Shown one piece after another: positions 24,162 to 52,196 of a DNA stretch of 64,000 bases (position 1 is the stretch's first letter; the number at the start of each line of letters is the position of its first letter). The notes under the pieces are model-generated. The model saw only the letters and a program-made list of their open reading frames with translations. It had not been told where the DNA came from and did no database searches. The position numbers were made by a program, and so were the translations under genes. The stretch comes from Kutzneria kofuensis (GTDB lineage: Bacteria; Actinomycetota; Actinomycetes; Mycobacteriales; Pseudonocardiaceae), in contig NZ_JACHIR010000001.1 of NCBI RefSeq assembly GCF_014203355.1, positions 4,094,038 through 4,158,037 of the forward strand, in the 5' to 3' direction.

Positions 24162-24979
24162 CGCCTGCCACCTCCCCAGCCATGCCGGGTGCTCGCCTGC
24201 TCCAAGTTGCGCTCGCTCGGCTCCGGCGCGGGCTCACCACGACGCATCGCCCACCACGCCGCGATCGGCTCCATCGCCTCGGCCACCGGCACCACCGGCT
24301 GAGACTGCTGCTGGGCGCCGCGCGGCAGGTGGTTCTCCAGGGAGCACGTGCCCACGATCTGCTTGATTCGCCGCACCACACCCGGCCGGTACCGGTCGTG
24401 CCAGTCCCCCGCCCGGTTCACCGTCGCGTCCTCCGCCCGGTAGGCCAGGCACCAGGAGGCCATCAGCCACAGCAGCTCCTCGACCACGTCGGGGTGCCAC
24501 AACCAGCAGTCCGGCAGACCCTTGGCGGCGTCGGCATAGCGCAGGTACACCTCCCCCATCCACTCCGACAGGTCCCGCAACAAGCCGTTGGCAGCGGCGA
24601 AGTCCTGCGGCATGTCCAACCAGGACGGCGCCGGCGTCGGCTTCGGCCGGCGGATCTTGGCCTGCACCTGCTCGGCCAACTCCCCCACCACCCGGGCCAA
24701 GTCCTCGACCTGCGCGGCCAGGCCGTGCATCGGCTGCACGATCCGGCGCAGCGCCTCGACCTCACGGGCCAGGCCGGCCACCGACGCGGCCGTGGCGAAC
24801 TCCTGCTCGGTCGGCTTGGCCTCCTCGGCGGTCTCGCGCTGGCGACGCTCGCAGGCATCCCGGTTCGCGCACTGCACCTCACGCGGCGCATCGGCGGACT
24901 CGTAATAGACGCCCGGCACCGGCTCGAAGTCCCGTACACCTCGGCGTCCACACAGGACGCACGTCATGATCTCGGTCAT
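24158..24979 (-). CDS. Hypothetical protein with N-terminal zinc-ribbon, 273 residues
   Basis: Begins MTEIMTCVLCGRRGVRDFEP; C7, C10, C37 and C43 could form a zinc ribbon. A coiled-coil segment follows (LAREVEALRRIVQPMHGLAA), then a helical region with DCWLWHPDVVEELLWLMASWC. The ATG overlaps the methyltransferase stop (ATGA). The ribbon and coiled coil suggest nucleic-acid or protein binding; function unknown. Confidence 0.65.
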   Translation of the reverse strand: MTEIMTCVLCGRRGVRDFEPVPGVYYESADAPREVQCANRDACERRQRETAEEAKPTEQEFATAASVAGLAREVEALRRIVQPMHGLAAQVEDLARVVGELAEQVQAKIRRPKPTPAPSWLDMPQDFAAANGLLRDLSEWMGEVYLRYADAAKGLPDCWLWHPDVVEELLWLMASWCLAYRAEDATVNRAGDWHDRYRPGVVRRIKQIVGTCSLENHLPRGAQQQSQPVVPVAEAMEPIAAWWAMRRGEPAPEPSERNLEQASTRHGWGGGRR

Positions 24980-26664
24980 GCCGTTCGCACCTCGTCTCCG
25001 GTGATGGCCTCGACCACGGCAGCGATCAGGTCACGCGCGATCGGCGGCGTGACCGCGTTGCCACACATGCGGACCTGTTCCCGCTTGTTGCCCAGCAGCA
25101 CGAACTGCGCAGCGAATCCCATGCCGCGCTTGACCTCGTCCGGCAGCATCATTCGGAACACGCAGTCGTTGATGTCCGGCAGCGCCTGCACCACCGCGTC
25201 GCCGGCCACGGTGGTCTGCGTCGGCAACGGGCCGCGCAGGGACCGGAACATGCCGGTGTCGTAGGCGTAGAGCACGTTCGGGTCCCACAACCGGGTGTCC
25301 GCCTCGGTGCCCTGCCACGGCGTGAGCGAGAGCAGCCCGTGGTGGTTGCCGCCGGCGGCGAAGGTGTCCAGCGGCTCCGTGCTCGACTTCGACCGGTTGT
25401 TGTTGCGCAGTGGCACCAGCACCAGCGCCTCGGACTCACGGGTCGTGCGGGTGCGCATCGGCTCCCACAAGGGCTGGCTGTCGTCGTTCCAGGTGCCGCC
25501 GGCCGGCACGAGCAGTCCGGTCTCGTTGCGGGCGGTCTGCGCTCGGTGCGGCTCCAGCGCGCTGCGGGCCACCTTGCCGTCACGGCCCTCGGCCGGCACG
25601 AGGAACAGGTAGCGTCGCACCGCGCTGCGCAGCGCGTCCACCTGGGACTGCGGGCCGAACTGGTTGAGGGCAGTGGCGATACGGGCCATCGTCTTCGGGA
25701 ACAGCGGCCGCTTGCGGTCCCCGATCCGGGTGCCCGGCGTGCCCAGGTCGATCGCGGAGATCGCCGGCAACGTGTACGGGTGCACGATGCCGTGCCGACA
25801 CGAGACCTGCGGGCAGCGGTAGGTGTACTGCTCCCAGTACGAGCCGTACGGCCGGCGCGGGTCCTTGGGCGCCGTCATCGCGTTGACCGGCCGGTCGCAG
25901 GTCGGGCACCACGCGGTCGGCCTGGTCCACTTGTCGAAGTCCGGGTCCCGGTACTTCTCCAACCAGAACACCACGTACACGCGGTCACGCAACTGTGGAG
26001 CCGGCGCGCCGAGCTTGTGCGCGAACGCCGAGTTCAGCGTCAGCACCTTGTGCCGGTACCCCAGCTTGCGCATCCTCGCGATCCACTTGGGGAAGTACCA
26101 CCACTTCAGCAGTTCCGGGGTGTTCTCCACGATCACGGCCCGGTACCTGTGGTGCTCGGCGAACCGGGGCACGTCGTGCATCAGCGCCCGGGACCGCTGC
26201 TTGGCCTCGGCCGGCAGCGCCTGCTTCTCGTCGTCCTCGTCATCGGTGTTGTCGAGGTCAAACAGGGTCGGCCGGGTGGCCTCCTCGGTGAAGTCCCGCC
26301 GCTCACCACGCGCGCCGGACCAGAACGTGCAGCTGGGCGAGGCCCACAGGAAGTCGGTGCGTGGGTAGCGGCGGGGGTCGACGTCGTGGATGTCGGCCAC
26401 GTCGTGGTCGACGTGCGGCATGTTCGTGTTGTGGGTCTCGACCGCCAACGACCAGTGGTTGCTTGCCATCCGCACGCGGACACCGGGCACGGCCTCGGCA
26501 CCGCTGGAAGAGCCGCCGGCGCCGCAGAACAGATCGGTGACGGTCCAGTCGCCGCCGCCGGGCCGTCCTTGGGCCGCGAACTCCGGGAACTCCAACAGCA
26601 CATAACGGAAGAACTCGTCGTCGACTGCCTGCTGGTTGGGCTGCTCGAACAGGAGCGTGGTCAT
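24976..26664 (-). CDS. DNA (cytosine-5)-methyltransferase with unusual motif IV
   Basis: 562 residues from ATG 26,664. S-adenosylmethionine motif I is DLFCGAGGSSSGAEA (44-58). The catalytic loop reads ASPSCTFWS with C112, in place of the usual PPCQ. VIVENTPE replaces the ENV motif, QLRDRVYVV matches motif VIII and GNAVTPPIARDLI matches motif X. The target-recognition region has a CPTC...CPQVSC zinc-ribbon-like set. No restriction enzyme lies nearby, so it is an orphan methylase that may protect transferred DNA from host restriction. It overlaps both neighbours by 4 bp (ATGA). Confidence 0.87.
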   Translation of the reverse strand: MTTLLFEQPNQQAVDDEFFRYVLLEFPEFAAQGRPGGGDWTVTDLFCGAGGSSSGAEAVPGVRVRMASNHWSLAVETHNTNMPHVDHDVADIHDVDPRRYPRTDFLWASPSCTFWSGARGERRDFTEEATRPTLFDLDNTDDEDDEKQALPAEAKQRSRALMHDVPRFAEHHRYRAVIVENTPELLKWWYFPKWIARMRKLGYRHKVLTLNSAFAHKLGAPAPQLRDRVYVVFWLEKYRDPDFDKWTRPTAWCPTCDRPVNAMTAPKDPRRPYGSYWEQYTYRCPQVSCRHGIVHPYTLPAISAIDLGTPGTRIGDRKRPLFPKTMARIATALNQFGPQSQVDALRSAVRRYLFLVPAEGRDGKVARSALEPHRAQTARNETGLLVPAGGTWNDDSQPLWEPMRTRTTRESEALVLVPLRNNNRSKSSTEPLDTFAAGGNHHGLLSLTPWQGTEADTRLWDPNVLYAYDTGMFRSLRGPLPTQTTVAGDAVVQALPDINDCVFRMMLPDEVKRGMGFAAQFVLLGNKREQVRMCGNAVTPPIARDLIAAVVEAITGDEVRTA

Positions 26665-27044
26665 CGCCGACCACCCGCCTGCGCGATCACCTGCGCCACC
26701 CACGCGCGCAGGTCGGTGCTGGGCAGCCGCCGCGCCTCACGGGTGTACCGCTCGGCGACCGCCATGTACTCCGGGCTCGCCGGCCGCGCGGTGTTGAAGG
26801 TCATGCCGATCAGCCGCTCGGCGACCAGGTCGTAGAGCTCCCAGTGCTCCAGGTCCAGCGTCACCGTCGCACCGGACAGCGCGGTCACGGGGATGGCCGC
26901 GACGCGCGTCTGGCCGTAGAGGTGGAACGGAACGTTCAACGAGACGTGCCGCTCGGCGTCGGACAGGCCCACGGTGACCGCGCTGATGCTCAGGGCGTGT
27001 CCGTTGACCCACCGTTCGTGGCCGATCAGGTTGAGGTGCATCAT
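26661..27044 (-). CDS. Hypothetical protein of the transfer operon, 127 residues
   Basis: Starts MMHLNLIGHERWVNGHALSI at 27,044, overlapping the TraG-like stop (ATGA), and ends overlapping the methyltransferase start. The first two thirds are beta-rich (VTVGLSDAERHVSLNVPFHL, GATVTLDLEHWELYDLV), the rest helical. The open frame upstream of 27,044 lies inside the TraG-like gene and is discarded. No family recognised. Confidence 0.68.
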   Translation of the reverse strand: MMHLNLIGHERWVNGHALSISAVTVGLSDAERHVSLNVPFHLYGQTRVAAIPVTALSGATVTLDLEHWELYDLVAERLIGMTFNTARPASPEYMAVAERYTREARRLPSTDLRAWVAQVIAQAGGRR

Positions 27045-29080
27045 CGCGACCGGCTCCCCTCGTGCTCGTCGACCGGCTGCTCGTTGATCGGCGCGGCCGG
27101 CAGGGCCGGCGGCTGCTCCAGTGCTGTCGCGGCGGCGTCGACCACAGCGGACACGGCGGAGCGCATCGCGGCACGACGGGCCCGAGCCGCGCTCCATCGC
27201 GTGGTCATTCCCGTCACCCACGCGCCCACATGGTCGCTGGCGGTCACCCCGGCCGTGATCCAGGCGTTGAGGCGGGCCGACCAGATCGCGGCCAGCCGGG
27301 CCCGCCACACCTGCCGCTGGTACGCCTTGACGTCGCGGCGCTTCCACGCCATCTGCACCCGCCCGATCGCCGGCGCCATCCCCCGACGGATGATCACCAC
27401 GCGGCCAAACGGCAACTGCGCGATCTGCCCGGCCGACAACACCGGCACCCGACGCGTGGTGTGCGACTGGCGGTCACCGTCCACATCGAACGTGTCGACC
27501 TTCTCGTCCCGGTCCCCCGTCAACGTCGAGTAGGCGCCCAGGTCGTCCGGGTCCCGACTCCCACCGAAGATCATCAGCGTGGCGACGTTGTTCAAGATCG
27601 CGGCCGCGCCGGTGTCGCCCCACCGCTGCCGCAGCTGCGCCCGCGACTGCGCCGCGATGTGGATCGTGACGTTGCGGCCCCCCATGTCGGCGGTCCAGTT
27701 GTCCAACGGGATCGGGCAGATCAACGCCGCTTCGTCCAACGCCAGCGTTAGCGGCGGGTCCAGCCGGCCGCCCGGCATGGTGCCGGCGATCCGCCGGGAC
27801 TCCCGCGCGATGTGCCCGGTCAGCGCGGTGACCAGCGGGGCGACCACGCCGTCCTCGGCGCCCAGCATGTAGACCGTGCCGCGGGTGTCCAGCAGCTGCT
27901 GCACGTCGAAGCCGTCGCCGGTCGCCGACGCGGCCGCAGTCGAGTCGGTCAGCCAGCCCAGGGCGGGCATGATCGTGGCGCAGATCGACGAGCGGGTGCG
28001 GTCGTTGGTGCCCAGGAACTGCTGCGCGTCCGACTCGAACGCCGGCTCCGGCGACCGCCGCAAACAGCGCTGCACGTCGGTGGCAGCCGCCTCCGGGTCG
28101 GCGACCCAGGCCAGCACGTCGCGCATCGTCGCGCCGCCCAACGCGGCGGCGTGCATCAACGCGGCCAACACGCGGCGGGCCTGCCCGGCCCAGAACTCCC
28201 GATCCCCACCCGCCCCTGGGGCGGACACCCCGGACAGCAGGTCGGTGGCCCGGGTGGTGGCGGTGGTGGGGTTGTCGCAGCCAGCCAGCGGGTCGAACGT
28301 GATGGTCGAGGGCAGCCCGCCCATGCCGCTGGGGTTGAACACGTGCACCGGGCCCAGCCGGCGGCGCAGCGGGCCGGTCGTGTTGAGCAGGTCGGTGCGG
28401 GTGCTGGTGGCGATCACCGCGCCCGGGGCGTCCAGGATCCGACCGGCCAGTTCACCGGTCTTCCCGCTACGCGGACCACCGATCCGCAGCGTCACGTCCT
28501 CCACCGGCGACCAGATCCGCAGCATCCCGACCCGGGCCAGCGGGGTGGCCAGCTCCCGGATCGGCACCAGCAGCCGCCGCCACCAGGTCACCTCACGCAG
28601 GCTTGGCCGCAGCACCGACGCCTTGCGGCGGGCGGCGAACCACGACGACGTGCGGAAGATCGACCAGGCCGAGGCCACGCCGTCGTTGCGGCGCCCGCGC
28701 GCGGCCCACCGGTTCACGGTGCCAGCCGAACCGCCCTGGCGGTGCCACCACCGCGCCACCGCCAGCAGCACCAACAGGCCGCCGATAACCAGCGGGTACG
28801 GCCAGTACTCCCGGCCCGGCGTTGTGGTGGGCAGATCACCGGTCGCGAACCACACCGACCAAGCGACCGCACCAGCACCGAGCAGACCGAGACGGGCCAG
28901 GGGCCGCTGCCCGATCGAGGCGATTAGAGCCAGCAGCACGATGACGCCACCGATCGTGATCAGCCAGGGCCACGCCTGCGTCGGGAACTTGCCGGCGGGC
29001 AGGCCACGCAGCAGCCAGCCAGCGGCACCGATCACGACACCCACGAAGGCGACGGACAGAAGGTCTCGCGACTTACTCAT
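27041..29080 (-). CDS. TraG/VirD4-type conjugal transfer ATPase (coupling protein)
   Basis: Hexameric membrane ATPase that brings relaxase-bound DNA to a secretion channel. 679 residues from ATG 29,080 (MSKSRDLLSVAFVGVVIGAA). Hydrophobic helices lie near 8-25, 34-55, 63-80 and 93-107. Walker A is GGPRSGKTGEL near 203-210 and Walker B LTLALDEAALI near 444-450. The arginine-rich AAQSRAQLRQRWG stretch is also typical of the family. The start overlaps the stop of the upstream helix-turn-helix gene. No VirB4 partner is encoded in the element. Confidence 0.9.
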   Translation of the reverse strand: MSKSRDLLSVAFVGVVIGAAGWLLRGLPAGKFPTQAWPWLITIGGVIVLLALIASIGQRPLARLGLLGAGAVAWSVWFATGDLPTTTPGREYWPYPLVIGGLLVLLAVARWWHRQGGSAGTVNRWAARGRRNDGVASAWSIFRTSSWFAARRKASVLRPSLREVTWWRRLLVPIRELATPLARVGMLRIWSPVEDVTLRIGGPRSGKTGELAGRILDAPGAVIATSTRTDLLNTTGPLRRRLGPVHVFNPSGMGGLPSTITFDPLAGCDNPTTATTRATDLLSGVSAPGAGGDREFWAGQARRVLAALMHAAALGGATMRDVLAWVADPEAAATDVQRCLRRSPEPAFESDAQQFLGTNDRTRSSICATIMPALGWLTDSTAAASATGDGFDVQQLLDTRGTVYMLGAEDGVVAPLVTALTGHIARESRRIAGTMPGGRLDPPLTLALDEAALICPIPLDNWTADMGGRNVTIHIAAQSRAQLRQRWGDTGAAAILNNVATLMIFGGSRDPDDLGAYSTLTGDRDEKVDTFDVDGDRQSHTTRRVPVLSAGQIAQLPFGRVVIIRRGMAPAIGRVQMAWKRRDVKAYQRQVWRARLAAIWSARLNAWITAGVTASDHVGAWVTGMTTRWSAARARRAAMRSAVSAVVDAAATALEQPPALPAAPINEQPVDEHEGSRSR

Positions 29081-29436
29081 GCCGCACCTCCAGCGCGCTG
29101 AGCGGTCCACTGCTGGGTCCAGGTCTCGGCGTCGATGCACTCCGCCGTCTCGATCGCGTCGTTGAGCAGCTGCTCAACCGCCTTCGCCGGCACGACGTAC
29201 CGGCCCTGTCGGCCACCGATCCGCAGCTGAACGGCCGGGAATCCACCGGCCTGGATCAGGCGGTAGAGGTACTCCTGCGAGATGCTCAGCAGTACGGCCG
29301 CCTCCGACACCGAGTACGTCGGAACACCAGCCGACCGCTTCTGCAATGCGGTGCGCATCGCGGCAGTACGAACAAGTTCACGGGCGGCGGTGCGCTGCAC
29401 CGGAACGCCGCCAGCGAGATTCGGCCGCTCGGTCAT
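29077..29436 (-). CDS. Excisionase-like helix-turn-helix protein, 119 residues
   Basis: Starts MTERPNLAGGVPVQRTAARE. The DNA-binding part is TYSVSEAAVLLSISQEYLYR followed by LIQAGGFPAVQL and a GRYVVPAKAVEQLL wing, as in MerR-like HTH_17/excisionase proteins. Overlaps its neighbours at both ends by ATGA. Second of two such proteins at the head of the transfer operon; one may be the excisionase and the other a transcriptional regulator. Confidence 0.8.
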   Translation of the reverse strand: MTERPNLAGGVPVQRTAARELVRTAAMRTALQKRSAGVPTYSVSEAAVLLSISQEYLYRLIQAGGFPAVQLRIGGRQGRYVVPAKAVEQLLNDAIETAECIDAETWTQQWTAQRAGGAA

Positions 29437-29660
29437 CGGACACCGCCCGCCGGCTGCGCGGTCTTCGCGCCCGGGGTCTCGCACGCCGCCAGGTACTCCA
29501 GGAACGCGTCGCCCGGGATCCGGACCGCACCCTTGCCCGTTCCCACTCGAACGGCCCGCAGCGCACCGGACTCGACGGCCCGGTAGATCGTCGTCAGCGA
29601 GACATCCAGCGCCTCAGCCAGGAACTTCACCCGATACAGCCGGGTAGGCTCAACCTGCAT
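29433..29660 (-). CDS. Excisionase-family DNA-binding protein, 75 residues
   Basis: First gene of the ten-gene transfer operon. ATG 29,660 follows GGGAGCAACG. The 75 residues hold a complete HTH_17/AlpA-like domain: LYRVKFLAEALDVSLTTIYR, then AVESGALRAVRVG and a wing ending AFLEYLAAC. Excisionases bend attachment-site DNA and direct the integrase towards excision. It is divergent from the GntR gene, with a shared promoter region. Confidence 0.82.
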   Translation of the reverse strand: MQVEPTRLYRVKFLAEALDVSLTTIYRAVESGALRAVRVGTGKGAVRIPGDAFLEYLAACETPGAKTAQPAGGVR

Positions 29661-29777
29661 CGTTGCTCCCAAGTTTTCGATGCGGGCCCCGGCTGGTGTT
29701 GCAGCACCGGTCGGGGCTTCTTGCTGTGCGGCGGTCGCTCCCGCGACGCGGGATCGGAGCGCCAACAAGGACAGCTT

Positions 29778-29785
29778 AGACGTCT
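29778..29785. promoter_or_regulatory. Palindrome in the excisionase/GntR divergent promoter region
   Basis: AGACGTCT forms a perfect 8-bp palindrome inside CTTAGACGTCTTAG, which is symmetrical except for two positions. It lies about 118 bp upstream of the transfer operon and 70 bp upstream of the GntR gene, so it is a plausible GntR operator. Confidence 0.35.
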
Positions 29786-29855
29786 TAGATGCCTCGGGCA
29801 ATGCAGCGAAAGGAGCAAAGACAGCTCGGATGGCCAAGCTCGTATGCTTGTCAAC

Positions 29856-30212
29856 ATGGAACGGCTCGACCTGGACGACTCCAGCCCGTCGTACATGCAG
29901 GTGGCCGCCCGGCTGCGCGCCGCGATCGACGCCGGAACTCTGCAGCCGGGCGAGCAGCTGCCTACGCACAAGGCGCTTGCGGATCAGTACAAGGTGGCTG
30001 TCGAGACCGTGAAGCGGGCGCTTGGCGAGTTGCGAACCGCGGGCCTCATCGTCACCAGGCAGGGAAAAGGCTCCTTCGTCCGCAGCGATAGGCAGCCGGA
30101 GCGCCGCACCCAGTCGACGGATCTCGGACGGCAGGTTGAGGAACTGACCCGCGAGTTGAGCGCGGTCAAGGAACGGCTGGCCGCTGTCGAGGCGCGGTTG
30201 GAGCCGAGGTAG
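29856..30212 (+). CDS. GntR-family transcriptional regulator (KorSA-like position)
   Basis: 118 residues from ATG 29,856 (MERLDLDDSSPSYMQVAARL). The winged helix-turn-helix is typical GntR: QLPTHKALADQYKVAVETVK, RALGELRTAGLIVTRQGKGS, FV. A C-terminal helix (ELTRELSAVKERLAAVEARL) replaces the usual ligand domain and probably dimerises it. An in-frame ATG at 29,844 is an alternative. Divergent from the transfer operon, which small GntR proteins repress in Streptomyces integrative elements (pSAM2 KorSA). Confidence 0.87.
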   Translation: MERLDLDDSSPSYMQVAARLRAAIDAGTLQPGEQLPTHKALADQYKVAVETVKRALGELRTAGLIVTRQGKGSFVRSDRQPERRTQSTDLGRQVEELTRELSAVKERLAAVEARLEPR

Positions 30213-30227
30213 TCGTTCGGCGTTGCA

Positions 30228-30250
30228 AATGGGCGCGGTAGTCGCCCATT
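30228..30250 (+). terminator. Hairpin after the GntR gene
   Basis: AATGGGCG (30,228-30,235) and CGCCCATT (30,243-30,250) form an 8-bp stem with a 7-nt loop, 16 bp after the GntR stop. No clear T run follows. Confidence 0.45.
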
Positions 30251-30326
30251 CGTCTGGTGGTGCTGCGTTTGCTGTCATGTCACCAACGATCGGCTTCGCA
30301 GCATGGTGCTCGGCAGTGTTAGTGCA

Positions 30327-30388
30327 GGTGACAGCGTTGCCGGCCGGTGATGTGACCGGATCACCAGCGCGACACCTCCCGTGTCACC
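30327..30388. promoter_or_regulatory. GGTGAC/GTCACC repeats upstream of the XRE regulator
   Basis: GGTGACA (30,327-30,333) and TGTCACC (30,382-30,388) are inverted around a second dyad, GGTGAT/ATCACC (30,346-30,365). They lie 50-115 bp upstream of the XRE gene, as expected for an autoregulatory operator. Confidence 0.35.
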
Positions 30389-30439
30389 ACCGCGCAGTGG
30401 GAGACTGGAGGAGAGCGAACCAAGGGCGCTGGAGGTGTC

Positions 30440-31675
30440 ATGAGCGACGGAGTGCCGGAGTGGGCGCGGCGCATCAAGGCCCTGCGCGATGCCCGAGGGC
30501 TCTCGCAGACAGCGGCAGTCGCCCGGATGCGGGAGCACAGCGATGACGAACTTCCGGAGTCGGATCACCTCGTTCGCCGCTGGAAGGCGTGGGAGCGTGG
30601 CGACAACAAGCCGAGTCCGGTCTATGCACCGCTGATCGCCGCGGCGCTCGGCACTGTGACGGCTACGATCTTCCCGCCAGAGCAACGCCATGATTCAGCT
30701 GACATTCTTGCTGTTACCGGTATGACGACGTTCGATATCGTGAGTCGGATCGAAGTCTCCGACCTCAACGACGCGGCGTTGACCGGGCTCCGAATGACGG
30801 TCGATCGTTTGTGCTCCGAGTACGCATCACAAGATCCGCTCAATCTGATCGTCGAGGGCCGACAGTGGTTGCGCCGAATGGTCGAAGTTCAGAACGGCCG
30901 GCTCACCTTCGCTCAACGCCGCGAGACGCTTGAGCTCATGGGTTGGCTCGCCCTTCTGGTCGGATGTCTCGAATACGACCTTGGCGACCGACGCGCGGCC
31001 GAGGGAACTCGACAGTCCGCGCTTCGCATCGGACTGGAAGTCGGTAGTCCAGGTATTGTTGGCTGGGCACACGAGATGCGCGCCTGGTTCGCACTCACGT
31101 CCAATGATTACCGAGGCGTCATCGCCGCGGCCGAAACTGGGATCGAAGCAGCACAGCCCCACAGTGTCGCCGTACAACTGCTGGCGCAGCAGGCCAAGGC
31201 TTACGCCCGTATGGGCAGGAAAGACGACATGAACGCCGCGTTGGAGCGCGGCCGACTGTTGCTCGACAGGTTGCCCTATCCCGAAAACGTTGAGAACCAC
31301 TTCGTGGTCGACCCCGCTAAGTACGACTTCTACGCGATGGATTGCTACCGCCACGTCGGCGAAGACAAGTTGGCGCGAGCATTGGCCGACGAGGTGATCC
31401 GGTTCGGCACGGACATACATGGCGAAGAACGCTCGCCCATGCGGATAACCGAGGCGCGTATAACCCTTGGCGTGGCCGCCGCACGCGAAGGCGATCTCGA
31501 AGAGGCACTCAGCCACGGTCAACGTGCAATCGCGTCCGGAAGGCGTTCCATCCCGTCACTGGCGATGGTGTCGCGCGACCTAACGGACGTTCTTACCGAT
31601 CGCTTTCCCCGCGAAGCGGATGCCATCGCCTACGTCGACGAAATCCGCAACATTCAGCGCCCGCCGTTGGCGTGA
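30440..31675 (+). CDS. XRE-family regulator with tetratricopeptide-like domain
   Basis: 411 residues. The N-terminal helix-turn-helix is RIKALRDARGLSQTAAVARM plus LVRRWKAWERGDNKPSPVYA (about 11-66). The rest is all-helical with TPR-like repeats (ERGRLLLDRLPYPENVENHF, EGDLEEALSHGQRAIASGRR), as in peptide-responsive or signal-sensing XRE regulators of Actinobacteria. Start is clear: GGAGGTGTC immediately precedes the ATG. Codon use is less GC-rich than the neighbouring chromosome, consistent with acquisition. It ends 40 bp from the convergent integrase. Confidence 0.85.
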   Translation: MSDGVPEWARRIKALRDARGLSQTAAVARMREHSDDELPESDHLVRRWKAWERGDNKPSPVYAPLIAAALGTVTATIFPPEQRHDSADILAVTGMTTFDIVSRIEVSDLNDAALTGLRMTVDRLCSEYASQDPLNLIVEGRQWLRRMVEVQNGRLTFAQRRETLELMGWLALLVGCLEYDLGDRRAAEGTRQSALRIGLEVGSPGIVGWAHEMRAWFALTSNDYRGVIAAAETGIEAAQPHSVAVQLLAQQAKAYARMGRKDDMNAALERGRLLLDRLPYPENVENHFVVDPAKYDFYAMDCYRHVGEDKLARALADEVIRFGTDIHGEERSPMRITEARITLGVAAAREGDLEEALSHGQRAIASGRRSIPSLAMVSRDLTDVLTDRFPREADAIAYVDEIRNIQRPPLA

Positions 31676-31715
31676 CGGCCGCAGCTGGCTGATGCCGGCC
31701 CCACCGCGCCTGCAC

Positions 31716-33008
31716 TTACTTCGGCCGCTTCAGCCGGTTGCCGAGGATCTCGGCTGCCCGCTTGTCGGCTTGGTCGGTCCAGGCGCTGTATACGCGCAGG
31801 GTGGTGCCCGGCGCGTGGCCAAGCCGACCGCCGACCGTTCGGACATCGACGCCAGCGGTGAGCAGCTGGGTGGCGGAGTAGTGGCGCATAGCGTGCAGGT
31901 GACTGTCGATGCCCAGGCGCTTGCAGAGGCGGGCATACCGGTGGGTGATCCCGCTGCCGTTGCAGGGGCGGTCATGCGTCGGGCTGTAGGAGAACACGTA
32001 GGCGTCCGCGGTCGTGCTGACATCGAGGTCGCGGCACGCCTTCTCGTAGCGCTCATGGTGCTCTGTGAGCAGCTCGACGGTGACCGGGTCGAGGGAGACC
32101 CGACGCATGGTGCCGGTCTTGGTGTCCCAGCAGTAGAGGGCGGAGTCGGTGAGGTCGACGTCCCGCCAGCGCAGGGCGACCAGCTCCCCGCGGCGCAGGC
32201 CGGTGACGTTGACGAGCCACACCAGCGTGCCCCACGCAGGGTCCTCCGCCCAGGCGCCGTCCACGATGCGCGCGGCCTGGTCGACCGTCGGCGGCTTGGG
32301 TTGGGGCTTGGGCTGCTCGGGCTTCTTGGCAACCTCGGCGGGGTTGCGGTCGATCCAGTCCCACCGCACGGCGGCCGACAGCGTGCCGGCGATGATGAAG
32401 TGGATTTTCAGGATCGAGGCGTTGGCCAGGGGCCGGCAGGCGTGCGGCTTGCACTCGGTGACCTGGCAACTCGCAGTGGCGCAGTCGTGATCGGGGTAGC
32501 CGCCAGCTGGCGGCCGACCGGGCGGGTACTTGTGGCGCACCACCCGGCACTCATGGTCGCCCTCGACGCGGTGATCGACTCCTGGCCGTCCGTCGCAGCG
32601 AGCGCGGCAGCGTCGCAGCTCGGCGTAGAGCTTCTCCAGCACCCGGGCCGACACCTTCGACATCGGCTCCTCGCCGAGTCCAGGCTTGCCGTTCACCGTG
32701 GCGTTGATGTACCGGCGGACGTACATCTCGTAGGTCTCGCGGGTCGCCTGCTCCAGTTCCTGGACGCGCAGCCACTCCTCGATCGCGTAGCCGAGGGTGC
32801 CCTTCGTGCGGGCCTGGTTCTGCTTGTCGACTTGGGCCAGCAGGCGGGTGAGGATGCGCTGCGCCTCGGCCTCGTCGGTGGTCGACTCGTCGAGGTAGAC
32901 GCGCTTGCCGGTGACAGGGTCGGTACCGGCGTAGACCAGCACGCGGAAGGAGTTCCCGCGCTTGACGATGGAGCCTCGCTGGCGCCTCTTACGACCGGGT
33001 TGCCGCAC
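31716..33008 (-). CDS. int: Tyrosine site-specific integrase
   Basis: Catalyses insertion into and excision from tRNA-Ala. The 430-residue form (GTG 33,008) has an N-terminal arm-binding part (RKRRQRGSIVKRGNSFRVLV), a core-binding domain and the catalytic domain with R272 (TGLRRGEL), H372-x-x-R375 (HLHAMRHY), H398 (RLGHA) and Tyr407 (LRVYSAW). An insertion at about 135-191 holds 8-9 Cys and several His, suggesting bound zinc. The frame is open to a TTG at 33,050 and neither start has a good ribosome-binding site. The gene lies 86 bp from attR, as usual. Confidence 0.93.
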   Translation of the reverse strand: MRQPGRKRRQRGSIVKRGNSFRVLVYAGTDPVTGKRVYLDESTTDEAEAQRILTRLLAQVDKQNQARTKGTLGYAIEEWLRVQELEQATRETYEMYVRRYINATVNGKPGLGEEPMSKVSARVLEKLYAELRRCRARCDGRPGVDHRVEGDHECRVVRHKYPPGRPPAGGYPDHDCATASCQVTECKPHACRPLANASILKIHFIIAGTLSAAVRWDWIDRNPAEVAKKPEQPKPQPKPPTVDQAARIVDGAWAEDPAWGTLVWLVNVTGLRRGELVALRWRDVDLTDSALYCWDTKTGTMRRVSLDPVTVELLTEHHERYEKACRDLDVSTTADAYVFSYSPTHDRPCNGSGITHRYARLCKRLGIDSHLHAMRHYSATQLLTAGVDVRTVGGRLGHAPGTTLRVYSAWTDQADKRAAEILGNRLKRPK

Positions 33009-33093
33009 GCTCCGAGCGTACTCGCAACCACTCTGACAGCCAGTGATCAACTAATGTGATCATGAAAGCTGGCGTTGTCGCTGGTCAGATACC

Positions 33094-42241: not shown

Positions 42242-43378
42242 TCAGCCGGGCAGGCGCACCGGCATCAGCAGGTAGAGGTACCCCTCCGCCACGCTTCCAT
42301 CCTCGCCCACCGGCTTGATCAGTGCGGGCCTGCTCGGTGTGGTGAACGACAAGTGGGCACGATCCGTGCGCACCGCCGCCAGGCCGTCGAGCAGATAGCC
42401 GGGGTTGAACGCGATCGTCACCGGGTCGCCGGTGAACTCCACGGGCAGCTCCTCCTCCGCGCTGCCCTCGTCGTCACCGCCCGCGGACAGCCGCAGGCCG
42501 CCGTCGCTGAACTCCAGCCGGACCTGGGTGCCGCGCTCGGCGACCAGCGACACGCGCTTGATCGCGTCCTGCAGCGAGGACACCTCGATGATCGCAGCCG
42601 CGTTGTGCTCGGCGGGGAGAAGTTGCCGGTACTTCGGAAACTCGGCATCCAGAAGTCGGCTGGTGGTCCGCCGCCCGGTGCCGGACAGGCCGAGCAGGCC
42701 GTCGCCGGAGGCCAGGGACAGCTCGACCGTCGAGCCGGCGCCGCCCAGCGTCTTGGCCGCCTCGGCCAGGTTGCGGGCCGGGACCAGGACCGCGGTGTCG
42801 ACCTCGTCGGCCGGCTCCCAGTCGAACTCGCGCATCGCCAGCCGGAACCGGTCGGTGGCGACCAGGGTCAGCTTGCCGCCGTTGAACTCGACCCGGACGC
42901 CGGTCAGCATCGGCAGCGTGTCGTCCTTGCCGGCCGCGACCGCCACCTGGCCGACCGCCTCGGCGAAGACCTCACCGGCGAGCGCGCCGGCCCGCTGCGG
43001 CATCGCCGGCAGCGCCGGGTAGTCCTCGACCGGCATGGTCGGCAGGCTGAACTTGGCGCTGCCGCACGTGATCGAGACGCGGGCCCCGTCGACGGCGATC
43101 TCCACCGGGTGGTTGGGCAGCGCCTTGGTGATGTCCGCGAGCAGTCGGCCGGAGACCAGGGTCTTGCCGCCGGCCGCGATCGTGGCCGGCACGCCGACCT
43201 GGGCCGAGACCTCGTAGTCGAAGCCGGAGACCGTCAGCGCGTCGCCGGTGTCGCCCTCGTCCGAGCCGGCGTCCAGCAGGACACCGCCGAGGACCGGGAC
43301 CGGCGGCCGCGACGGCAGGCTTCGGGCGACCCAGGCCACGGCGTCGGCTAGACCGTCGCGCTCGACGCGGATCTTCAT
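42242..43378 (-). CDS. dnaN: DNA polymerase III beta subunit (sliding clamp)
   Basis: 378 residues. Ring-shaped clamp holding polymerase on DNA. Starts [20 protein letters not shown] at ATG 43,378 after GGAAAGGA, and ends [12 protein letters not shown] as typical for the family. The longer frame to 43,528 has no supporting features. Immediately follows oriC. Three clamp domains are inferred from length. Confidence 0.96.
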
Positions 43379-43542
43379 GAGGGCGTCCTTTCCTTCGGCA
43401 CGACCTTGGTCGTCCCCGTGTCGTCCGGGCTCGGCACACGACCGGGTCCTAGGGGAGCCCAACGGTAGAGCGTGCGGGGCCGCTTCGTCATGTCGGGGCT
43501 TCCCCGGCCGGACCGCCGCTGTCCCCAACTTCGGCCACCCCC

Positions 43543-43590
43543 TGTTTTTCTTCTTTTCATCTCTTCGAAGAGATCCCCAGTAACAGCAGT
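43543..43590. other. AT-rich patch with 16-bp palindrome, possible unwinding element
   Basis: A pyrimidine run of T-rich sequence is followed by the perfect palindrome ATCTCTTCGAAGAGAT (about 43,559-43,574). It is the least GC-rich part of the origin, lies just before the DnaA boxes, and is a candidate DNA-unwinding element. Confidence 0.5.
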
Positions 43591-43605
43591 AAGGGTTGTG
43601 GATTG

Positions 43606-43839
43606 TGTGGACAACCGGGGTTTGCGCTGTTCAGGTGATGGCTGGGGGTGTGGGCAAGTACCCCGGGTGACCGGTGGACAACTTGGGGCCCCCGTGGACA
43701 ACTTCTCGGCTGCTCCGTTCGGTCCACAGATCGGTCGAGTTGTCCACATCCCCATCCCCAGATGTGGGCTGGTTCGTCCCCAGGCGTTGCACAGGGTGAA
43801 AGTGGCCCAGGTCTCCCCGATGTGGGTGACTGTGGACAA
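43606..43839. promoter_or_regulatory. DnaA-box cluster in oriC
   Basis: Exact TTGTCCACA boxes (either strand) at 43,606-43,614, 43,740-43,748 and 43,831-43,839. One-mismatch boxes at 43,649-43,657, 43,673-43,681 and 43,693-43,701. A weaker GGTCCACA lies near 43,720. Five of the six boxes are on the TGTGGACAA strand. Confidence 0.88.
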
Positions 43840-44635
43840 CTTTTCTGGGATCCGGGGCCGATCGGGCACCCCGGGCCGCCAGAAAAGTTCATCCGCCGAG
43901 GGTTGCGGCCGGCGAGTTTTCTGAGGGCGGCCGGCCCGCGACCGGGGTCGGTGGTCAGAAAGATCACGGAGGCCGCGCCCAGGTCGATGGGCGGATCCGG
44001 GCCGCGGGCGGGGCGGGAGCCGCCGGCGCAGAGCTTCTCATCGAGGGGCGGACCGGCCCGCAACCCGGTCAGCGAGTCGGCGACTTTTCCCGGCCGGGGG
44101 TGGGGCGCTCCGGCGGGGGCAGTGAGAAAGGGGTCGGCGGCGGCCGGGGCGGCGGGCCCAAGGGCTGACCGGCGGCCGGGCGGTGAGCTCCGTCGACTGG
44201 TCGGCGGGCGTGGCCGACGCCGGCTTTCTGGCCGAGGTCGATGGCGGCTCCGCGAGGCCGACCAGAAAGGTCGCGCCTCTCTGATCAGAGCCCGGCCGGC
44301 TGGCTCGCGACCGCGCCGCCACCCGCTGCCGATCTGGCCGGCACCGCGTCCGGTCGACCTGGTGTCGGCGGACCGTCAGTCTTTCTGGCTGGGCTCGGCG
44401 CCGGGCGCGCCCCCTCAGTCAGAAAGGTCGCGCCGTGGACCGGCGGCCCCGCGGGCCGAGGTGGTCCGGCGCGTAGATCAGTAAGGTGCGGCACCGCGGA
44501 CGCGGCCGCCATCTTTCTCACTGGCTTGGGTGACCGCGCCGGGCACGTGGTGAGAAAGGTCGGCCAGGGGGCAACCCGGCGGCGGGAAGGTTTCTCACCG
44601 GGGCCGGCGGCGGACCGGGGTGCCTCGTGAGAAAG
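43838..44635. repeat. Array of 46-bp dyads with a constant 30-nt spacer in oriC
   Basis: Arms CTTTCTGG or CTTTCTCA and their complements face each other with exactly 30 nt between. Units: 43,841-43,886 (arms extend to 11 bp), 43,917-43,962, 44,224-44,269, 44,381-44,426, 44,513-44,558 and 44,590-44,635. A degenerate unit lies at 44,085-44,130, and single half-sites at 44,033 and 44,479. The right arm usually continues GGTCG. The AT-rich arms stand out in very GC-rich spacers that are unrelated in sequence. No known origin-binding protein is recognised from the motif. Confidence 0.85.
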
Positions 44636-44716
44636 AAGTCGGCGTCGGGCGGCCAGGGCCGGACAGCCGCGAGCGGCCCACCGGGATGCGGGGGCCGCTC
44701 AGGGACGAAACGGGGG

Positions 44717-46264
44717 TCAGCCGCGGGCGCGCTGCTTGATGCGGGAGGTCAGCTCCTGCACCTGGTCGTAGATCCGCCGGCGCTCCGCCATCTCCTTGCG
44801 GATCTTCTTGTCCGCGTGCATGACGGTGGTGTGGTCGCGGCCGCCGAAGGTCTGGCCGATCTTGGGCAGCGACAGGTCGGTCAGCTCCCGGCACAGATAC
44901 ATGGAGATCTGCCGGGCCTGGGCCAGCGCCTTGGTCTTGCCCGGGCCGCACAGGTCGTCGATGGTCACGCCGAAGAACTCGGCGGTCACGGCCATGATCG
45001 TCGGGGCGGTGATCTCCGGGGCGTGCGAGTCCGGGATCAGGTCCCGCAGCACGATCTCGGCCAGCTGCACGTCGACGGGCTGCCGGTTCAGCGACGCGAA
45101 CGCGGTGACCCGGATCAGCGCACCCTCCAGCTCCCGGATGTTGCGCTCGATCCGGGCGGCGATGAACTCCAGCACCTCCGCCGGCGCGGCCAGCCGGTCC
45201 TGCGCGGCCTTCTTGCGCAGGATGGCGATCCGCGTCTCCAGCTCGGGCGGCTGGATGTCGGTGATCAGGCCCCACTCGAACCGCGTGCGCAGCCGGTCCT
45301 CCAGGGTCTCCAGCCGCTTGGGCGGCCGGTCCGAGGACACCACGATCTGCTTGTTCGAGTTGTGCAGCGTGTTGAAGGTGTGGAAGAACTCCTCCTGCGT
45401 TCCTTCCTTGCCCTCCAGGAACTGGATGTCGTCGACGAGCAGCACGTCGATGTCCCGGTAGCGGCGCTGGAAGGCGATCTTGCGGTCGTCCCGCAGGGAG
45501 TTGATGAAGTCGTTGGTGAACTCCTCGGTGGACACGTACCGCACCCGCATCCCCGGGAACAGCCGCTGCGCGTAGTGCCCGACGGCGTGCAGCAGGTGGG
45601 TCTTGCCCAGACCGGACTCGCCCCAGATGAACAGCGGGTTGTACGCGCGCGCCGGCGCCTCGGCCACCGCCACCGCGGCCGCGTGGGCGAACCGGTTGGA
45701 CGCGCCGATGACAAAGGTGTCGAAGGTGTACTTCTCGTTCAGCCTGGTCTGCGAGTTGGTCTGCTGGCTCGGCTGCGCCGCCGGCGGCCCGCTGAACGTC
45801 GGCCAGATCTCGTGCACGGTGGCCAGCGCCTCGCGCTCCTCGTCCACCTCGTCCTCGGACTCGCCGTCCTCGGACAGGGTGATCGCCGGCATCGGCGCGG
45901 TCTGCTCCGCGGGGGCGACGGCCGGCGGGCGCGGAGCGGGCGTGGTGATCAGCGGCTGCGGGGTGGGCGCGGGCGGCGGGCCGGCGGCGGCGCGCGGCAC
46001 CACGGTGTCGACCTTGACGGCCAGCGACACCGGGCGGCCGAGCCGGCGGGACAGCGCGGCGGTGATCGGATCGCGCAGCGCCCGCTCGATGGCCTCCTTG
46101 GCGAAGTCGCTCGGCGCGCCGAGCAGGACCGTGCCGTCCAGCAGCCCGATCGGCCGGGTCACCCGCATCCAGGCGCGCTGCAAGGAGGACAGGGCCCCTG
46201 CGGCGAGCAGTTCCTGGACGACCTGGTCCCATACCTGACCGAGGTTGGTCTGGTCGTCGGACAC
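44717..46264 (-). CDS. dnaA: Chromosomal replication initiator DnaA
   Basis: 515 residues from GTG 46,264 with GGGGAG upstream. Domain I is about 1-90, a disordered Pro/Glu-rich domain II about 95-170. The AAA+ domain follows with Walker [16 protein letters not shown] near 213-227 and Walker [13 protein letters not shown] near 271-283. The DNA-binding domain IV ends with [15 protein letters not shown]. It binds the TTGTCCACA boxes in oriC and in its own leader. Confidence 0.97.
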
Positions 46265-49308: not shown

Positions 49309-49346
49309 GCGCGGCCCGTTTCACGTGAAACGGGCCGCGCTTTTTT
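49309..49346 (+). terminator. Terminator of the rpmH-jag operon built around a parS site
   Basis: A perfect 32-bp palindrome (49,309-49,340) with GCGCGGCCC arms on either side of GTTTCACGTGAAAC, followed by six T residues. As RNA it would be a long hairpin with the parS palindrome as its upper stem, 15 bp after the jag stop. Confidence 0.8.
49318..49331. promoter_or_regulatory. parS: parS site 1
   Basis: GTTTCACGTGAAAC, an exact core parS palindrome bound by ParB, located within the terminator hairpin downstream of jag. Confidence 0.93.
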
Positions 49347-49419
49347 GTGCCCGGAGTCGGGTAGGCGCGTCCTTCGAACGGGTGCCACACAGCGACGGGA
49401 GGCGTTTGTTGGTCGCTGT

Positions 49420-49433
49420 GTTTCACGTGAAAC
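49420..49433. promoter_or_regulatory. parS: parS site 2
   Basis: GTTTCACGTGAAAC, exact palindrome, in the jag-rsmG intergenic region, 102 bp from site 1. Confidence 0.93.
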
Positions 49434-49463
49434 GGGGTCGTCGGGGAAGATGGGGCGGACACG

Positions 49464-49477
49464 GTTTCACGTGAAAC
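49464..49477. promoter_or_regulatory. parS: parS site 3
   Basis: GTTTCACGTGAAAC, exact palindrome, 44 bp from site 2 and 21 bp upstream of rsmG, so ParB binding could affect rsmG-parAB expression. Confidence 0.93.
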
Positions 49478-49498: not shown

Positions 49499-50185
49499 AT
49501 GAGCGAGGCGTTGGAGCCGTCGGCGGACCTCGTGGAGCGGGTGTTCGGCGACGGGGCGTCGGGGGCCATCAAGTTCGCCACGCTCTTGGCCGACCATGGA
49601 GTGGAGCGCGGTCTCATCGGCCCGCGTGAGGTCGAACGGCTCTGGGAGCGCCATCTGTTCAACTCGGCCGTACTTGCCGAGTTGGTGCCACAGAATTGTC
49701 GGGCGGTGGACGTAGGCTCGGGGGCGGGACTTCCCGGCATCCCGCTGGCGATCGCCCGACCCGACGTCCGGCTGACCCTGTTGGAACCGATGGCTCGGCG
49801 CGTCGCCTGGCTCCAGGAAGTCGTGGACACCCTCGGCCTCGACGTCGAGGTGATGCGTGGCCGGGCGGAGGAGCCCGAGGTGCGACGCCGGCTCGGTGGC
49901 AGCGACATTGTCACCGCCCGTGCGGTCGCGCCGCTGGAGAAGCTGGCGAAGTGGTGCCTGCCGCTCCTTCGGTCCGGCGGGCAGTTGCTGGCGCTCAAGG
50001 GCGCCAGCGCGGCCGAGGAACTGGAACGCGATGCGGCAGCGGTGGCGAAGGCGGGTGGCCGCCGCCAGTGGGTGGCCACCTGTGGCGCCGAGGTGCTTGA
50101 GGTGCCGACGACCGTCGTCGTGGTGGAACGAGACGAACAGGTGGGGCGTCGTGACGGCGGGCGTCGGAGACGGAAGGATGGGTGA
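49499..50185 (+). CDS. rsmG: 16S rRNA (guanine-N7)-methyltransferase RsmG
   Basis: 228 residues; methylates G527 (E. coli numbering) of 16S rRNA. Its loss gives low-level streptomycin resistance in other bacteria. ATG 49,499 follows GGGAG; the GTG at 49,478 overlaps parS. SAM motif VDVGSGAGLPGIPLAIARPD is clear, with WERHLFNSAVL before it. Ends overlapping parA by 4 bp. Confidence 0.95.
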   Translation: MSEALEPSADLVERVFGDGASGAIKFATLLADHGVERGLIGPREVERLWERHLFNSAVLAELVPQNCRAVDVGSGAGLPGIPLAIARPDVRLTLLEPMARRVAWLQEVVDTLGLDVEVMRGRAEEPEVRRRLGGSDIVTARAVAPLEKLAKWCLPLLRSGGQLLALKGASAAEELERDAAAVAKAGGRRQWVATCGAEVLEVPTTVVVVERDEQVGRRDGGRRRRKDG

Positions 50186-51210
50186 GCGTGTACTCGGATC
50201 CTCAGATCGGAGCACCGCATGTTCCACGTGAAACAGCGCGACTCGCAGAGGCACACGACGGGCCCGTCGGAGCCGGAGAGGTACTACGCCCGATGAATCC
50301 AGGAATGAGCGAGTCGGTCATGGCCGGCGAAGGCGCGACTTGGACTCCGATCGAAGCCGAGGCTCAGCGCGCCGCCAAGGTGCTGCACCCGGATTCGTTG
50401 AAGCTCCCTCGACCGGCGCAGCGCCGCATCATGACCGTGGCCAACCAGAAGGGCGGCGTCGGCAAGACGACCAGCACGGTCAACCTCGCCGCCGCACTCG
50501 CCCTGCACGGGCTGAAGACGCTCGTGATCGACCTCGACCCGCAGGGCAACGCCAGCACCGCTCTCGCCATCGAGCACCGGTCCGGCACACCGTCCGTCTA
50601 CGAGGTGCTGATCGGCGAGATCTCCATCGCCGACGCGGCGGCGGTCAGCGAGCAGTCCCCGAACCTCTACTGCGTGCCGGCCACCATCGACCTCGCCGGC
50701 GCGGAGATCGAACTCGTCTCCATGGTCGCCCGCGAGTCCCGGCTCAAGGAGGCGCTCTCCAGCGAGGCGCTCGACGAGCTCGGCATCGACTACGTCTTCA
50801 TCGACTGCCCGCCCTCGCTCGGTCTGCTGACGGTCAACGCGCTCGTCGCGGCCAAGGAGGTGCTGATCCCGATCCAGTGCGAGTACTACGCCCTGGAGGG
50901 ACTCGGCCAGCTGCTGCGCAACATCGACCTCGTCAAGGCGCACCTGAACCCGGCGCTGGATGTCTCCACCATCCTGCTCACCATGTACGACGGCCGGACC
51001 AAGCTGGCCGACCAGGTGACCAGCGAGGTGCGTGGGCACTTCGGCGACACCTGCCTCCAGACGGTCATCCCCCGCAGCGTGAAGGTCTCGGAGGCGCCCG
51101 GCTACGGCCAGACGGTGCTCGCCTACGACCCGGGTTCGCGCGGCGCGATGAGCTACCTGGACGCCGCTCGTGAGATCGCCGACCGCGGCACGGAAATGGA
51201 GCGCGCATGA
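50182..51210 (+). CDS. parA: Chromosome-partitioning ATPase ParA
   Basis: 342 residues. Deviant Walker A is [20 protein letters not shown] near 84-104, followed by [11 protein letters not shown] and [16 protein letters not shown]. Works with ParB-parS to move newly copied origins. The N-terminal 80 residues are a variable extension. GTG 50,182 overlaps the rsmG stop, with GGAAGGA just upstream. A parS-like sequence lies within its early codons. Confidence 0.95.
50220..50235. promoter_or_regulatory. parS: parS-like site 4 inside parA
   Basis: TGTTCCACGTGAAACA differs from the ideal 16-bp parS by one base. It lies in codons for the variable ParA N-terminus. Confidence 0.8.
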
Positions 51211-52196
51211 CCCCGCCGGAACGCAAGGGTGGCCTGGGCCGCGGCCTCGCGGCGCTCATCCCCCAGGGTCCGCCCCCCGGCGAGACCAACGGCGCCGGCG
51301 TGAAGCTCGGCGCCGCCACGGACGAGGCTCCCCCGGCGGTCGTCGGGGGCAACACGGTGGCCGGCGCGGTGTACCGCGAGGTGCCGATCACCGAGATCAA
51401 GCCGAACCCGAAGCAGCCCCGCCAGGTCTTCGACGAGGACGCACTGGCCGAGCTGGAGCACTCCATCCGCGAGTTCGGCCTGATGCAGCCGATCGTCGTT
51501 CGCGAACTGGGTCGCGGCTCCTACGAGCTCGTGATGGGTGAGCGCCGCTGGCGCGCCTCCCAGCGCGCCGGCCTGGACGCGATCCCCGCCATCGTGCGGC
51601 AGACCGCCGACGACGCCATGCTGCGCGACGCGCTGCTGGAGAACATCCACCGCGCCCAGCTGAACCCGCTCGAAGAGGCGGCCGCGTATCAGCAGCTGCT
51701 CGACGAGTTCGAGGTGACGCACGAGGAGCTCGCCTCCCGCATCGGCCGCAGCCGGCCCGTCATCACCAACACCATCCGGTTGCTCAAGCTCCCGCTCCCC
51801 GTCCAGCGCCGCGTCGCCGCCGGGGTGCTGTCCGCCGGCCACGCCCGGGCGCTGCTCGGTCTGGAGGACTCCGGATCGCAGGAAGACCTCGCCGCGCGGA
51901 TCGTCGCCGAGGGCCTCTCCGTCCGGGCCACCGAGGAAGCCGTGACGCTCGCGAAGAACGAGGCCCCGGCCAAGCCGAAGCCCGCTCCCCGCAAGCCCAT
52001 CCACGCCCCCGGGCTCCAGGACCTCGCCGACCGCCTGTCGGACTCGTTCGACACCCGCGTCAAGGTCGAACTCGGCCGCCGCAAGGGCCGGATCGTCGTC
52101 GAGTTCGGGTCGGTCGACGACCTCGAACGCATCGTCGGCCTCATCGCGCCGGATGCGGCAAATCGGACACAGATCGGGGACATCCCATCACCTTGA
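51207..52196 (+). CDS. parB: Chromosome-partitioning protein ParB
   Basis: 329 residues. N-terminal CTPase motifs NPKQPRQVF and [13 protein letters not shown], central helix-turn-helix ([20 protein letters not shown]), and C-terminal dimerisation domain starting near 285. Binds the parS sites nearby and spreads along the origin. ATG overlaps the parA stop (ATGA). Confidence 0.96.

Follow-up and report, generated by a model that had tools for sequence, protein, structure and literature searches.

What does a set of long-spaced inverted repeats do in a chromosomal replication origin? The question is raised by the window studied here, a stretch of 64,000 nucleotides (4.09–4.16 Mb of the 10.44-Mb Kutzneria kofuensis genome), in which six pairs of TTTCT-type arms and their complements are gathered beside dnaA. 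The dyads are a real, conserved origin element, and their position, exclusivity and conservation suggest a role in origin control.

Organization of the dyad array

oriC usually sits between dnaA and dnaN. In the window, dnaA and the gene that we take to be dnaN lie on the minus strand and are separated by 1,338 bp, in which the dyad array (43,841–44,635), a cluster of DnaA boxes and an AT-rich stretch, probably the unwinding element, follow one another from dnaA to dnaN (Table 1). The array comprises six exact TTTCT-N34-AGAAA dyads packed within 793 bp and a degenerate seventh. All six pairs reported in the preliminary description were recovered in place with 30 nt between their 8-nt arms, which equals 34 nt between TTTCT and AGAAA. 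Seven TTTCT and seven AGAAA words occur at 43,378–44,720, and the convergent pairs up to 100 nt apart all have the N34 spacing (6/6). An extra weak pair in the AT-rich stretch scored 12.2, below the cut-off of 16, and was left out of the counts.

Table 1. Positions of the origin features and of the parS sites within the window.
Feature	Position	Strand	Remarks
dnaN	42242..43378	-	Start taken as the methionine of MKIRVERDG
AT-rich stretch	43530..43600		48% GC
DnaA-box cluster	43606..43839		Exact TTGTCCACA at 43606(-), 43740(+), 43831(-); one mismatch at 43649, 43673, 43693
Dyad 1 (dnaN-proximal)	43841..43886		TTTTCTGG-N30-CCAGAAAA; DnaA box 43831-43839 abuts
Dyad 2	43917..43962		TTTCT-N34-AGAAA; 76 bp from dyad 1
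Degenerate dyad	44085..44130		TTTCC / AGAAA; N34 spacing as in the exact dyads; one core mismatch
Dyad 3	44224..44269		TTTCT-N34-AGAAA
Dyad 4	44381..44426		TTTCT-N34-AGAAA
Dyad 5	44513..44558		TTTCT-N34-AGAAA
Dyad 6 (dnaA-proximal)	44590..44635		TTTCT-N34-AGAAA; 77 bp from dyad 5
dnaA	44717..46264	-	
parS sites	49318..49477		Three perfect sites within 160 bp, separate from the array

Other details of the preliminary description were borne out in part. The degenerate pair keeps the common spacing, but it lacks an aligned counterpart in other members of the genus (identity of 0.03 and 0.0 at the arms) and may therefore be decayed or strain-specific. Two lone half-sites proposed at 44,033 and 44,479 are each one base off the five-letter core and belong to no scored pair, and the pitch of 77 bp claimed for both ends of the array applies to the dnaA-proximal end, the other end having 76 bp. 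Neighboring dyads in the genus are often 65–77 bp apart, with 76 bp recurring, and the data are no more than suggestive of helical phasing from unit to unit (p 0.052).

The half-site consensus, R-A-n-Y-TTTCT-S, is found on both sides of the dyad. The spacers had been described as GC-rich and unrelated to one another. They are indeed GC-rich (84.8% in the seven units vs. 78.5% between units) and mostly free in sequence, but not wholly unrelated, as they carry a weak central GNYC/GRNC pattern and show an identity of 0.49 in the genus alignment, higher than the 0.35 of the rest of the array region; the arms reach 0.66 and the DnaA-box part 0.63.

The array fills the dnaA-proximal half of the region, as originally noted, but DnaA boxes are not absent from the origin: three exact and three one-mismatch copies of the consensus TTGTCCACA stand on the dnaN side. 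In the whole window, the search returned 32 such sites, exact or with one mismatch. Between 43300 and 44800, all TTNTCCACA-type 9-mers with up to one mismatch fall into this cluster, and none lies within a dyad. The array is thus located outside the initiator's core sites, farther towards dnaA than the DnaA boxes. A DnaA box, CAGAAAAGTTGTCCACA or, in one genome, GAGAAAAG, abuts the last dyad on the dnaN side in five of six genus members, the sequence stretch of the sixth (G002) having ended before dnaN. TTGTCCG, a sequence related to the DnaA box, occupies the same place in two of the three members of genus g22.

The dyad is nearly confined to oriC; a random frequency of the motif across the genome, which the preliminary description had named as counting against it, was not what was seen. 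Seven exact N34 dyads exist in the 10.4-Mb genome, six of them in the array, and a reversed-pattern control gave none; the arms of the sole outside copy (C1:823,135) stop at the core. When spacings of 28–40 nt were admitted, nine places were found genome-wide, of which six are in the array, compared with one for the control. When up to two mismatches were allowed, N34 sites in the 64-kb window numbered seven, none of them outside the array; over 100 shuffles, the mean was 1.9 and the maximum 6. Matches of CTTTCTS...SAGAAAG with 0–29 nt between the arms are absent from this genome and amount to seven isolated cases in seven other genomes, against six for the control. A mobile repeat of the REP or MITE kind and a scattered regulon were rejected, since six of the seven exact N34 sites are in oriC. 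One extended-arm match among viral contigs, in DNA of 30% GC, was taken as chance.

At 24161–33050, a phage-type integrase, a TraG/TraD-like coupling protein and a C5 cytosine methylase adjoin a gene that we presume to be gyrA, and this segment is probably an integrative conjugative element near the origin.

Distribution of the dyads in Pseudonocardiaceae

The dnaA–dnaN region was scored in 100 Pseudonocardiaceae genomes of 37 genera, picked across genera from 200. Dyads were called from a half-site score at spacings N33–36, which gave three dyads in 860 shuffled regions. At least one dyad lies between dnaA and dnaN in 42 of the 100 genomes, the other 58 having none by this score, and at least six of the 100 stretches ended before dnaN. 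Two or more dyads are present in 27 genomes of 10 genera (g1, g2, g11, g13, g17, g18, g22, g27, g29, and g68), leaving 73 without a pair. Six further genera have one dyad, which is weaker evidence than that of the 10 genera with two or more; for the single dyad of g19 (G024), a dyad also arose in one of that genome's 20 shuffles. Five of six additional genomes of the window's own genus carry dyads beside dnaA, and in the sixth (G003) dnaA was not found. Close relatives lacking the spaced arms, the second outcome that would have spoken against the preliminary description, were thus not what was seen, as same-genus and family genomes keep the dyads.

Outside the family, no dyads were detected in 61 named origin regions, a set that includes one row labeled Pseudonocardiales (L049). 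Of a set of 80 loci, 69 were used, two contig ends and nine Firmicutes being left out, and five of the 69 were dropped because they lacked dnaN. One stretch (L138) is a contig end of 41 bases, and G108 and G099 were left out for lack of dnaN. Among 198 genomes from the order's other families, none had more than three hits by the complete per-genome counts, and the matches listed, which leave out the two hits of G058, showed no cluster. A different type of repeat was observed in Nocardia (L015, L017, L019, L070) and Rhodococcus (L004, L006), whose dnaA–dnaN regions hold 6–13 CTCGAG palindromes each (0.2–0.3 expected), which in Nocardia aurea sit within GGATTCCTCGAGGAATCC repeats. These sets are another lineage-specific origin palindrome array.

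The preliminary description held that the spacing itself is conserved, and the family data agree with it. Among 126 convergent TTTCT/AGAAA pairs at 0–80 nt in 101 regions, 92 have spacings of N33–36 (10, 55, 22, and 5, respectively), two of the 92 being counted twice (Saccharopolyspora HNM0986 is G075 and Amycolatopsis regifaucium is G021) and near-identical genomes, such as those in g17, being counted separately. No such pair has 37–58 nt, and the other orientations of the two words give only smaller peaks that fit the pitch of about 76 bp. Scored pairs at N34 number 61, compared with a mean of 0.17 per spacing after shuffling of all regions. When each genus contributes one region, TTTCT surpasses the rest of the 1,024 five-letter words in peak-to-background ratio (29 pairs vs. 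0.77, in 12 of 37 genera), the runner-up, TTCTG, being the same motif. The DnaA-box word TGTGG forms more pairs (32), but over a higher background.

On a dnaA plus dnaN tree of 43 rows, built by a quick method with 19 of 40 forks left open and long outgroup branches flagged, arrays are spread over the family and are missing from an 11-genus clade (support 100) with Amycolatopsis-type genera. The presence of two or more dyads requires eight changes on this tree vs. 9.9 after shuffling, with 44 of 500 shuffles as low, and is thus patchy; the array-less state requires seven vs. 14.6 (0/500). From this pattern, we infer common descent of the arrays with losses. A de novo search of the array-less clade for spaced dyads with other arms did not exceed the best of five shuffles in seven of 11 rows, and gave one pair above the best shuffle in the other four (G078, G020, G025, G070). 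The dnaA–dnaN distance is long, 2.3–3.1 kb, in G012, G014, G065, G078, G070, and G025.

A sister class of units was found in the family. The genomes of g67, g9, and g30 examined have no N33–36 dyad reaching the score; their units read TTATTG-N5-GKGGA ... TCCMC-N5-CA[GA][AT]AA, the outer six-letter cores being 26 nt apart. In genus g27, N34 dyads occur together with dyads whose six-letter cores are separated by 28 and 26 nt, and seven of its eight genomes carry the dnaN-side element TTTCTG-GGGC-TGTGGA-N6-TCCACA-GCCC-CAGAAA, with varying outer cores. In both groups, the inner words resemble DnaA-box cores. In G160 (L159, L201) and other g67 members, the N26 class includes near-perfect 17-bp palindromes around a 4-nt centre as well as units whose arms are clearly non-complementary.

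Base pairing or protein recognition of the arms

The preliminary description offered two readings of the arms, a protein that bridges or loops DNA and a set of cruciforms. In the latter, recognition would depend on a structure formed by pairing of the arms, either in RNA or in DNA that is single-stranded or supercoiled. Each unit is an inverted repeat, and single-strand folding of the seven window units yields z values of -0.8 to -4.2 relative to shuffles, as inverted repeats tend to. If pairing were required, a change outside the core in one arm should be accompanied by a change in the other. However, over 109 N33–36 units, 404 of 1,090 comparisons of letters outside the core match vs. 402.3 expected (p 0.455), and genus g27 alone shows no covariation either (p 0.776). 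Three of 29 positions in a per-position test of 132 units do point the other way, with z > 2 (-6, -1, and +3). Apart from the central position (z 2.2), the interior of N34 units is about as symmetric as chance predicts, arms that are not complementary occur in several genomes, and just eight of 23 units of the N26 class have complementary outer cores. Pairing alone also leaves the fixed arm sequence and the fixed gap of 33–36 nt unexplained.

The main point against recognition of half-sites by a protein comes from the window's own genus, in which arm complementarity (p 0.012) and stem extension (p 0.001) exceed permutation, in a test that counts orthologous copies several times; for the window genome by itself, arm complementarity has a p value of 0.11. 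Pairing also exceeds the permutation prediction in the N27–31 class, where extended stems stand above all permutations (0/1,000), and at one orthologous dyad of g27 the arms stay matched across a C/G vs. T/A difference in six of seven genomes. Nevertheless, because covariation is missing overall, two half-sites read by a symmetric protein are preferred over a hairpin, which we consider unlikely. For the N34 class, bridging or looping by a protein is accordingly the better of the two original readings and cruciforms the poorer one, the window's own genus being the exception.

A putative origin-control platform

The array probably represents six to seven putative binding sites for one sequence-specific, symmetric, origin-dedicated DNA-binding protein that would gate origin opening by DnaA. 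The binder would be a dimer or a dimer of dimers, each site consisting of two inverted half-sites RAnYTTTCTS, 33–36 bp apart, so that one complex would grip about 44–52 bp and would have to bend, loop or span the GC-rich centre. A row of such complexes, in contact with the outermost DnaA box of the adjoining cluster, may form a nucleoprotein platform that sets the time or the frequency at which DnaA can open the AT-rich stretch beyond that cluster. Such a platform would most likely act as a brake or handcuffing element, although its sign, brake rather than helper, is a guess. The sites, their spacing, their near restriction to oriC, their occurrence in several genera, the overall lack of covariation between arms and the placement relative to the DnaA boxes are observed, whereas the protein nature of the binder, its symmetry and its effect on initiation are inferred.

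Three alternatives place the sites in other systems. Spaced dyads are common for transcription regulators, and the array is flanked by two genes of the same strand, so that it could be the operator cluster of a regulator of dnaN or dnaA with no direct part in origin firing. This seems rather improbable, since the array is 3' of dnaA and its dnaN-side end is about 460 bp before dnaN, past the DnaA boxes. The genome, moreover, has a single other exact N34 dyad, and six or seven repeats over 0.8 kb are unusual for one promoter.

The arms could also be atypical DnaA sites, both half-sites of a dyad being bound by a DnaA pair held together by domain I. The array is within oriC, in the same intergenic region as the actinobacterial DnaA-box clusters, and touches a DnaA box, and the N26–28 class nests DnaA-box-like cores (GKGGA/TCCMC, or TGTGGA-N6-TCCACA in g27) between the arms. 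On the other hand, TTTCTG does not match the consensus TTGTCCACA, most of the listed N33–36 spacers have no DnaA box, and the arm sequence and the fixed inverted spacing of about 39 bp differ from those of DnaA-box clusters, which are separately present. A conserved domain I dimer is described for actinomycete DnaA in the relevant part of one report (PMC13270200) and would fit such a pair. Compared with that of the window, the DNA-binding end of DnaA is 88–93% similar in the array-less clade and 91–92% in g27 and g68, among the matches listed; being about as similar in that clade as in these array-bearing genera, it leaves the loss of the sites unexplained, and we regard this alternative as improbable.

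A centromere-like or nucleoid-anchoring element of the ParABS type, suggested by the origin-proximal location and multiple copies of these inverted repeats, is very improbable, as the arms are not parS, three perfect parS sites stand separately (Table 1), and the genes for ParA- and ParB-type proteins occupy 50,182–52,196. parS is a compact palindrome of 14–16 bp, and GTTTCACGTGAAAC has five matches within two mismatches elsewhere in the window and none in the array. The three perfect sites are located just before a gene that we take to be rsmG, followed by parA and parB.

The putative binder would most likely work like the 39-mer sites of RctB at ori2 of Vibrio cholerae, with no claim of relatedness. 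According to passages of a study of that system, these are long origin sites distinct from the iterons, the 39-mers occupy a regulatory part beside the replicative part, the 29-mer is a 39-mer lacking 10 nt in its centre, and the sites brake initiation through titration and handcuffing (PMC6090056). The array shares with them the origin location, the long sites, the variable length of the centre and the position of a putative regulatory part next to a replicative part. In contrast, RctB is the own initiator of a secondary chromosome, with two 39-mers and one 29-mer rather than six to seven sites. A Pfam scan of 20 of the 53 called window proteins, run without an RctB-specific model and leaving four of the 20 without a match, detected no origin-type regulator or replication-initiator family; one protein is an ECF-type sigma factor. 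A binder encoded beside the origin therefore has no candidate among these 20 proteins. Against Rfam, 43350–44730 gave a single match of 18.1 bits (gathering threshold 40), outside the array.

It is possible, though tentative, that a dedicated origin-binding protein of the family, unrelated to DnaA, SeqA, IHF or RctB, recognizes half-sites in pairs separated by about 39 bp and forms an array complex on the dnaA side that gates initiation, and that this system is ancestral in the family, disappeared from the Amycolatopsis-type clade and includes a variant gripping DnaA-box cores between the arms.

No description of the dyads was found in the literature on actinobacterial oriC, in a coverage mostly outside subscription papers, so that their absence in print is not established. 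The passages of two papers concerned (PMC4210621; PMC3469384) do not mention them, and the former describes the oriC of Kutzneria albida as lacking classic DnaA boxes. The dyads of the present array suggest that a conserved component can be overlooked when origins are mapped by their DnaA boxes only. To our knowledge, little is known about the timing of replication initiation in actinobacteria other than the model genera. With its conservation, its rigid geometry and its near restriction to the origin, the array offers a direct bait for the missing regulator, for which the array-less sister clade provides a natural control.
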